64,000 nt of DNA, from positions 434,001 to 498,000 of the forward strand of contig OX424560.1 in assembly GCA_949152475.1 (NCBI GenBank). Reading direction: 5' to 3'. Below the pieces are notes generated by a model. The model ran no database searches. It saw nothing but the letters and a program-made list of their open reading frames with translations, and was not told where the DNA came from. The translations under genes were made by a program, and so were the position numbers. Shown here piece by piece: positions 9,274 to 12,200 of the stretch (position 1 is the stretch's first letter; every line of letters starts with the position of its first letter). The DNA is from Terebella lapidaria (Eukaryota; Annelida; Polychaeta; Terebellida; Terebellidae).

Positions 9274-12200
9274 TTACTCGATGGCAAACGTACTGGTTTC
9301 CTCCACGGCGATGGAGAGTTTCTCAAAGAGCACCTCGAAGGACGTGTACGGAGGCATGTCCAAACGGTTGAAACAGGTGTGAGCCCTGGAGTGAGTATAA
9401 ACATACACTGAATAGATCTCGACAGATCACTAGCCCTGGAGTGAGTATAAACATACACTGAATAGATATGGGCAGATATTTAGCCCTGGAGTGAGTATAA
9501 ACATACACTGAATAGATATGGGCAGATATTTAGCCCTGGAGTGAGTATAAACATACACTGAATAGATATGGGCAGATATTTAGCCCTGGAGTGAGTATAA
9601 ACATACACTGAATAGATCTCGACAGATCATTGCCACAATAAACATTCACAGTCAGACGCAAAGGAATTATTGGAGAATGGTGGTAAAGTTCACAGACGAA
9701 AGCTAACATGAAGATGAGTATCCGAGGCTGAAGAAGACTTATTTCACTCCATTCATATCCTCATGAAGCATGCATGTTAAACACTGTACCTCGGTAGACT
9801 AGAGACTTTGCCCCACTTCTCGATGCAGAATTTGCGAGGTCCGTTGCTGCCCCGGAGAGCCGAGAATCCTTCGTACGGGATGCTGCTAGTGCCAGTCACA
9901 AACTGTAGGAGGCGTAGTCGTCGCTCATTGTCGTAACGCTCCACCGCCTTCCAGAACCATTGAATCACAAGGTGCTGGTCGTGGTAACCTAGCAACAAAA
10001 CACTGATCGTCCTCAAGCTTTTCTAGGGTAATGATATCAAACTCTGGAACTGATATATATCCACACCAGAAGGTTATTATTTGTCGGTATCAGATCTGTA
10101 CTCAGAGTACCATGCTGGTCAACTATACTTGGTGTCCCTTTCCCTGCTACCACGGTTACCTGTTCTGTACTCGGTGTTACTGTTGCCATGGTTATCTGAT
10201 TGTACTCATGTTACTGTTGTCATGGTTACCTGATCTGTACTCGTGTTACTGTTGCCTTGGTTACCTGATCTGTACTCGTGTTAATGTTGCCGTGGTTACC
10301 TAATCTGTACTCATGTTACTGTTGCCGTGGTTACCTGATCTGTACTCATGTTACTGTTGCCATGGTTACCTGATCCGTACTGTGTTACTGTTGCCATGGT
10401 TACCTGATCTGTACTCGGTGTTACTGTTGCCATGGTTACCTGATCTGTACTCGTGTTACTGTTGCCATGGTTACCTGATCTGTACCCGGTGCACCTGTTG
10501 CCGTCGTTACCTGATCTGTACTCGCCTTACTGTTGCCATGGTAACCTAATCTGTACACCTGTTGCCATGGTTACCTGATCTGTACTCGTATTACTGTTGC
10601 CATGGTTACCTGATCTGTAATTGTCTTACTGTTGCCATGGTTACCTGATCTGTACTCATGTTACTGTTGCGATGGCTACCTGATCTGTACTCGGTGTTAC
10701 TGTTGCCATGGTTACCTGATCTGTACTCAGTGTTACTGTTGCCATGGTTACCTGATATGTACTCTTGTTTTCTGTTGCCATGGTTACCTGATCTGTACTC
10801 GTGTTACTGTTGCCATGGTTACCTGATCTGTACTCGTGTTACTGTTGCCATGGTTACCTGATCTGTACTCATGTTACTGTTGCCATAATTCCCTGATCTG
10901 TACTTGTCTTACTGTTGCCATGGTTACCTGATCTGTAGTCATGTTACTGTTGCCATGGTTACCTGTTCTGTGCTTGTGTTACTGTTGCCATGGTTACCTG
11001 ATCTGTACTCATGTTACTGTTGCCATGTTTACCTGATCTGTAGTCATGTTACTGTTGCCATGGTTACCTGATCTGTACTCGGTGTTACTGTTGCCGTGAT
11101 TACCTGATCTGTACTCGGTGTTGCGGCGCCAGTCTGTGATGTCGATCTCTACGGTTCCGGCAATTACGAGCTCCAGCTCTCGAGCATCAAACACGGACAC
11201 AATCCGCGGGTCCATCACCTATAGAGTGACAGGTAAAATCTCTGTCACAGGCTTATTGTGGGAATGAGAGTTGTAAAGACATATTCTGAATCAGCACTGA
11301 CAGATATTCAATGTACATTGACATGACAGGCTATGTTGTTTTGCCCAGTTACCTCGAAGAAGCCACGGACGAGGCACTCGGTTTGTTCAGAGATCCCGCG
11401 CTCTACGCGCCACCGAACCATGCGCTCCAGATAGTCCTTCTTGTTACGCTCCGTGACTGCAATGTTCTTACCGTTAGTCTTCAACTCCCGCTCAGTGATC
11501 TAAGGGACAAACAGCAGTATGTGTATTCATGGATGAAGCAGGACAGCACGAGACTCCAGAGTCTGGCTCGACAGTTATCTCTAGCACTGAAGCAGTTAGC
11601 TGATCGTGCTGGTTGTCACGAGATTCCCACTTCATCACTAACCTGTCCAAAAACTTCCTCGTCCACGGAGAACGTCAGGTCGAGGCCGAGGTCCGTGATG
11701 TCATTGTCTTTGATCCACTGTAGACTGTTGTGGAACTCAGCGTCCAGGGACTCCAGGTCACTTAGTGACGGCGGGCTGAGGGGTTCAGAGAGACTCATGT
11801 AGCAGAACATCGTGTCAGGTACAATCACAAACAATACACAAATGTGAACACTGTTTTGGTAATGTGACAATGGAGGCTGCTGTGATCACTCACACTCGGA
11901 GCAGGGACTTGTAGAAGGGTCTCGTGAAGAAAGCATCCATCAGATATTGGTGTATCAGTGCCAGACCCAACAAGCGACCGGCAAACCGAAACCTGTGTCA
12001 GAGATAGTGAGCTGTGATGTTCTGGTAACTGATGGAGGACACAATCGTGTTGGGGGTCACATGATGGAGGTCACATGTTGGAGGTCACAGGATGGAGGTC
12101 ACATGTTGGAGGTCACATTTTAGAGGTCACAAGTTGGAGGTCACATGTTGAAGGTCACATATTAGAGGTCAAATGTTGGAGGTCACATATTGGAGGTCAC

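Follow-up and report, generated by a model that had tools for sequence, protein, structure and literature searches.

Minisatellites that lie on splice junctions are known from amphioxus and from one human gene. The human gene, IFI6 (6-16, G1P3), carries a donor minisatellite that was reportedly described by Turri et al. in 1995; its unit is 12 bp long, so that all copies are in frame. One study is also said to have found human introns that arose from tandem arrays. In IFI6, two downstream repeat units are described as serving as donors (PMC4526556). The amphioxus arrays, called mirages, are described as boundary-spanning minisatellites at both the 5' and the 3' exon-intron boundaries; two haplotypes of the globin gene BflGb6 hold 6 and 3 mirage units, and RT-PCR suggests that mirages do not disturb splicing (PMC3087553). 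Further mirage genes are added in a paper on amphioxus PGBD5 (PMC3902484). Among annelids, the introns of earthworm metallothionein genes are described as containing minisatellites whose monomers average about 180 bp (PMC12783039). The titles and abstract openings that we searched, with subscription papers mostly out of reach, yielded no such junction arrays outside amphioxus and IFI6, a weak negative. With the arrays described here, a phenomenon so far described in amphioxus and a single human gene reaches an apparent lophotrochozoan, in more than one gene.

The principal array lies in an HECW gene on the minus strand of the window, by which we mean the whole 64,000-nucleotide stretch analyzed (C6:434001-498000); positions given without a contig are those of the window. 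Joining the exons from 13174-13287 to 9274-9385 on the minus strand gives one open frame that ends at a stop codon. Several HECW2-like proteins from a nemertean and from gastropods share 81% identity with its HECT domain, and the exons match the full-length HECW proteins of the nemertean Tubulanus, the gastropod Haliotis, and Lingula in order; these comparisons bear out the gene name given in the initial annotation. In a tree of 43 HECW rows, none of them from amphioxus, the protein falls inside a 26-row lophotrochozoan clade (SH-aLRT 99), next to Helobdella and one further protein (support 90), with long-branch warnings that include Helobdella among the flagged rows. Judging from this tree, the genome looks lophotrochozoan, and it is on this placement that the rejection of amphioxus as the host depends.

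The array begins in the third coding exon counted from the 3' end of the gene (11104..11218, minus strand), which is 115 nt long, has a phase 1 donor, and is placed by the spliced open frame and by homology. The following intron (9989..11103, minus strand) is 1115 nt long in our exon model. It is followed by an exon at 9790..9988 and the final coding exon, including the stop codon, at 9274..9385, both on the minus strand and both placed by the spliced open frame and homology. The donor is where it had been annotated, at 11104|11103, and reads CAG|GTAATC; in coding orientation, AACACCGAGTACAGATCAG closes the exon and GTAATCACGG opens the intron.

TRF places a 35/36-bp array at 10150..11122 (minus strand), with period 35, 27.8 copies, and 88% matches, which confirms the initial observation. 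The array fills most of the intron, and its most frequent unit in the alignment is GTAACCATGGCAACAGTAACACGAGTACAGATCAG. The shared exon tail had been put at 13 bases; it is in fact 19 bases long (11104-11122), and it is exact in copies 1, 12, and 20 of the 27. These 19 bases encode NTEYRS, which lies inside the HECT domain in an alignment with NEDD4. Agreement with the exon tail is 19/19 in copy 1 and 18/19 in copy 27, the two edge copies, and likewise in the inner copies 11, 12, and 20. Once the array is split into units, 28 donors line up in register: position 11103 is the real one, and 27 extra positions follow down to 10159, at steps of 34-36 nt with one step of 29. AG|GT is intact in 25 of the 27 extra units, the exceptions being 10892 (GG) and 10195 (AT). 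A 20-base junction probe finds 26 matches in the intron (at most 5 mismatches), compared to no more than 1 in any of 100 dinucleotide shuffles.

The unit thus joins exon and intron sequence, with 19 exon bases and AG|GT in all but two of the extra units, and by the features examined the HECW array is a member of the known mirage kind. The amphioxus mirages in BflGb6, BflGb9, and Adh3 are likewise described as tandem units across a 5' or 3' boundary, many with splice signals, so that the likeness to mirages that had been suggested for this array matches the descriptions in PMC3087553 and PMC3902484. The differences are that the HECW tree places this genome among lophotrochozoans rather than cephalochordates and that copy number here reaches 157, compared to the 3 and 6 units described for the BflGb6 haplotypes. 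As in IFI6, a minisatellite at an exon end puts several donors on offer; unlike in IFI6, the unit is a mixture of 35 and 36 bp, no multiple of three, and an open product comes from the first extra copy only. The known duplication that created an intron also involved a segment crossing an intron-exon boundary, but there a single duplication made a new intron, whereas here many copies lie in one intron and no new intron is seen. Large intronic tandem repeats in an annelid are also a point of likeness to earthworm metallothionein, although the metallothionein units are not described as spanning a boundary in the text available.

The HECW gene has further arrays on the minus strand, located by TRF. 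One, at 9382..9617 (50 bp, 4.7 copies), which the initial annotation does not mention, lies in the intron after the one just described and crosses the last exon's acceptor, TATACTCACTCCAG|GGCT, with 4 exon bases inside the repeat. Another, at 13294..14250 (50 bp, 19 copies), ends 6 nt before an acceptor, abutting the junction without spanning it, and a third, at 12048..12717 (14 bp, 48 copies), lies within another intron away from the junctions. In the HECT part, the six introns free of TRF arrays are 100-147 nt long, and the four array-bearing ones have lengths of 404, 884, about 1096, and 1115 nt (one donor corrected by one base). When the extra units are subtracted, the array-bearing introns come down to 177-225 nt.

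HECT, myosin-head, and kinesin domains were then sought across the assembly, and the surroundings of the exon matches were checked for tandem repeats. At a distance of about 52 kb from HECW lies a myosin gene (C6:374.8-391.6 kb), which we take to be class-I-like, with five junction-spanning arrays. Four of these are on donors: TCATCTCAG|GTCAGAGT (43 bp, 26 copies), GTGGCAGCAT|GTGAGTAC (44 bp, 157 copies, C6:376324-383210), GCCTCCAAG|GTCAGT (32 bp, 14.5 copies), and CAGTCTAAG|GTACAG (63 bp, 5.8 copies, 40 exon bases); the fifth is on the acceptor TTATTGTTTTAG|GGTGA (26 bp, 3.1 copies). The 44-bp array, with 97% matches, takes up nearly the whole of a 6.9-kb intron, in which the donor CAT|GTGAGTAC recurs as 156 exact copies (CATGTGAGTAC). 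A presumably kinesin-5-like gene on C9 has a 67-bp array of 12 copies across an acceptor (C9:677370-678174, 9 exon bases inside). Both kinds of boundary are affected in this genome, with donor arrays in the HECW and myosin genes and acceptor arrays in the HECW, myosin, and kinesin genes. In a HECT gene on C11, presumably SMURF-like, a 48-bp array of 11 copies includes the intron side of a donor when judged by eye, and in a kinesin gene on C13 a 16-bp array of 19 copies begins 2-3 nt inside the intron.

Most of the HECT, myosin, and kinesin regions sampled have no junction arrays. Among 60 HECT and myosin loci, of which 7 on small contigs were dropped for foreign-looking stop codons, arrays overlap an exon match only on C6, at 0.37-0.45 Mb. 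Of the 11 kinesin regions fetched, two (C9 and C13) have an array touching a junction; C9 was chosen for its nearness to a contig end and the other ten for their compact exons. Because the exon-overlapping arrays among the HECT and myosin loci are limited to C6, and because HECW and the myosin gene are neighbors near one end of this 44-Mb contig, junction arrays may be a trait of this region more than of the genome.

The computed U1 pairing energy of the real HECW donor is -8.2, and 23 of the 27 copies fall between -7.8 and -8.5; the four damaged copies range from -1.7 to -6.6. Since the real donor has no advantage in strength, position must decide if it is the one chosen. For the coding outcome, exon 11104-11218 was joined with each extension to the next two exons. 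Splicing from the real donor reaches the native stop codon, and so does splicing from the first extra copy (+36 nt), which keeps the frame and adds 12 residues. Each of the remaining 26 positions runs into a premature stop at codon 69 of the combined sequence; for 25 of them this stop falls within the extension, and for the +71 copy it lies just beyond the junction. The initial annotation had stated that later donors would add multiples of about 35 nt and shift the frame; this is partly wrong, since the first extra copy keeps the frame, the other 26 positions ending prematurely. The HECW reading frame thus requires the real or the +36 donor.

These results suggest that splicing relies mostly on the exon-proximal donor, with the upstream acceptor and the first donor together defining the 115-nt exon. 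The RT-PCR results on amphioxus mirages, which suggest undisturbed splicing, count in favor of this explanation. Messages made from later donors would carry premature stops and would probably be removed, and the +36 donor may yield an in-frame minor isoform that is 12 residues longer. Leakage to downstream donors may nevertheless be substantial, given that IFI6 uses two downstream repeat units as donors. Arrays in which near-identical donors, from dozens up to 157 of them, recur at a fixed spacing amount to a natural experiment on donor choice: strength is equal, position alone varies, and the length difference between products is known to the base, so that this extreme redundancy makes donor choice directly testable. 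They also bear on intron lengthening and on models in which introns are gained when splice sites are duplicated.

How did the array arise? It had been proposed to have grown out of the junction itself rather than inserting nearby, and three lines of evidence agree: the exon tail lies within the unit, the repeat is private to the locus, and CpG has decayed in the units only. In a search of the assembly (761.6 Mb, 438 contigs; very common words skipped), all 18 matches to the HECW junction region lie at the HECW locus, which argues for growth in place. In the unit alignment, the CpG of the exon tail has become TG in 9 of 27 units and CA in 3 of 27 but is retained as CG in the exon, as would fit the decay of unselected methylated DNA. 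Most likely, then, a segment of 19 exon and about 16 intron bases across the boundary was tandemly duplicated in a formerly short intron, copies would have increased by slippage or unequal crossing-over, the exon-proximal donor is mostly used, and the array is tolerated, not selected; we hold this explanation with good confidence. Duplication within a short intron is supported by the small size of the array-free introns together with the residual lengths of the others. The 28 registered donors, the 26 probe matches, the local matches, and the CpG change all count for duplication of the junction, as does the same anatomy in other genes. Similarity between HECW units shows no gradient with distance: it is 0.87 for adjacent units (lag 1) and 0.87-0.88 for units farther apart. 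This flatness is not the gradient of simple stepwise slippage; a burst or long-range exchange fits equally well.

A broader reading, which we think improbable, is that in this genome minisatellites arise preferentially at splice junctions, with R-loops or breaks at transcribed exon-intron borders as possible causes, and that introns grow mainly in this way. We are just as doubtful of its sharper form, in which donors above all are hot spots and introns lengthen largely by the copying of splice sites. If it were true, cells would have to keep to the exon-proximal donor although as many as 156 equal decoys are present, and lapses would release novel in-frame stretches of protein, of which the HECW repeat of 12 residues would be an example. 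As a null model, we placed a duplicated unit-length segment uniformly over the intron and its edges; junction hits are common under such seeding because the introns are short. Of the 15 arrays with usable flanking exons, 8 span a junction compared to 3.8 expected (P = 0.009). The excess persists without the 35/36-bp HECW array (7/14 compared to 3.5 expected, P = 0.02) and without HECW altogether (6/11 compared to 2.6, P = 0.01), and five junction arrays occur within the one myosin gene. One myosin intron, first taken as 1540 or 400 nt, is 1385 nt in these counts; at 400 nt the three P values are 0.026, 0.055, and 0.037.

Without the myosin gene, however, only 3 of 9 arrays span a junction compared to 2.2 expected (P = 0.40). 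The count is post hoc, and junctions were judged by our own reading. TRF arrays overlap the exon by 19 and 4 nt in HECW, by 2, 10, 5, 22, and 40 nt in myosin, and by 9 nt in the C9 kinesin; for the borderline myosin array with 2 nt, the exon end is matched at 9 of 10 bases by eye. Scoring this array as non-spanning gives 7/15 (P = 0.04), with P = 0.08 when the 35/36-bp HECW array is left out and P = 0.06 when HECW is. Two further arrays, of 48 bp on C11 and of 16 bp on C13, were scored as non-spanning throughout. Excluded from the count were 18 TRF arrays (score of at least 80) that had incomplete flanking exons, lay outside a gene, or belonged to the 121-400-bp families, none of which overlaps a matched exon, as well as two 134-bp arrays in another HECW intron. 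Given also that short introns by themselves produce junction hits and that most sampled regions lack junction arrays, a junction preference is hinted at, not shown.

Could the HECW array instead be functional, its repeated donors acting as a switch for intron retention or a poison exon, or its X-boxes as an enhancer cluster? The near-palindromic X-box is the consensus of the RFX site; it occurs 20 times within the array, and later donors are predicted to give premature stops. But the motif is common in this genome, with 5 copies compared to 0.67 expected in the window outside the array and 14 compared to 1.15 expected across 175 kb of other loci. In the 27-unit alignment we see no special constraint on the donor columns: they are kept in 24-26 of 27 units, compared to 25-27 of 27 for the exon-derived columns 27-36. 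With the exon-derived columns equally well kept, donor and X-box appear to be under no special constraint. We set aside an X-box function, since the motif is also enriched at other loci, and consider a functional array of either kind quite unlikely.

Insertion of a dispersed satellite or introner-like element at the junction is the least credible origin and very improbable, for although dispersed satellites (about 134 and 147 bp) are present in the window, the unit holds the exon's own coding end and there are no unlinked copies among the 18 assembly matches of a search that skips very common words.

Several other features were observed along the way. The AT...AC intron of the C13 kinesin gene (C13:39418449-39418997) opens with ATATCCTT, has TTCCTTGAC close to its end, and looks like a U12-type intron by the consensus of that class; its 16-bp array repeats TCCTTGAC, with 10 exact copies. 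Outside the HECW array, the X-box-like palindrome GT(A/T)ACCATGG(T/C)AAC is found in the window at 8577, 9264, 9984, 21908, and 22975, and one X-box-like copy lies directly at the HECW stop codon. On small contigs (C34 to C428), the kinesin, myosin, and HECT matches contain many in-frame TAA and TAG codons; these contigs are probably foreign DNA in the assembly, with a ciliate-like reading of TAA/TAG as glutamine. TRF finds the 134-bp satellite family in the window at 15771-16050, 16449-17198, 33128-36195, 46444-48978, and 60247-60702, and a 400-bp form of it lies at C11:9350132. An 82-bp array of 43 copies with 94% matches occupies 4055-7567, downstream of HECW. Finally, open frames at about 30824-38242 on the minus strand belong to a BARD1-like gene whose BRCT part is 57% identical to the best match and 46% identical to a bivalve protein, among 5 hits.
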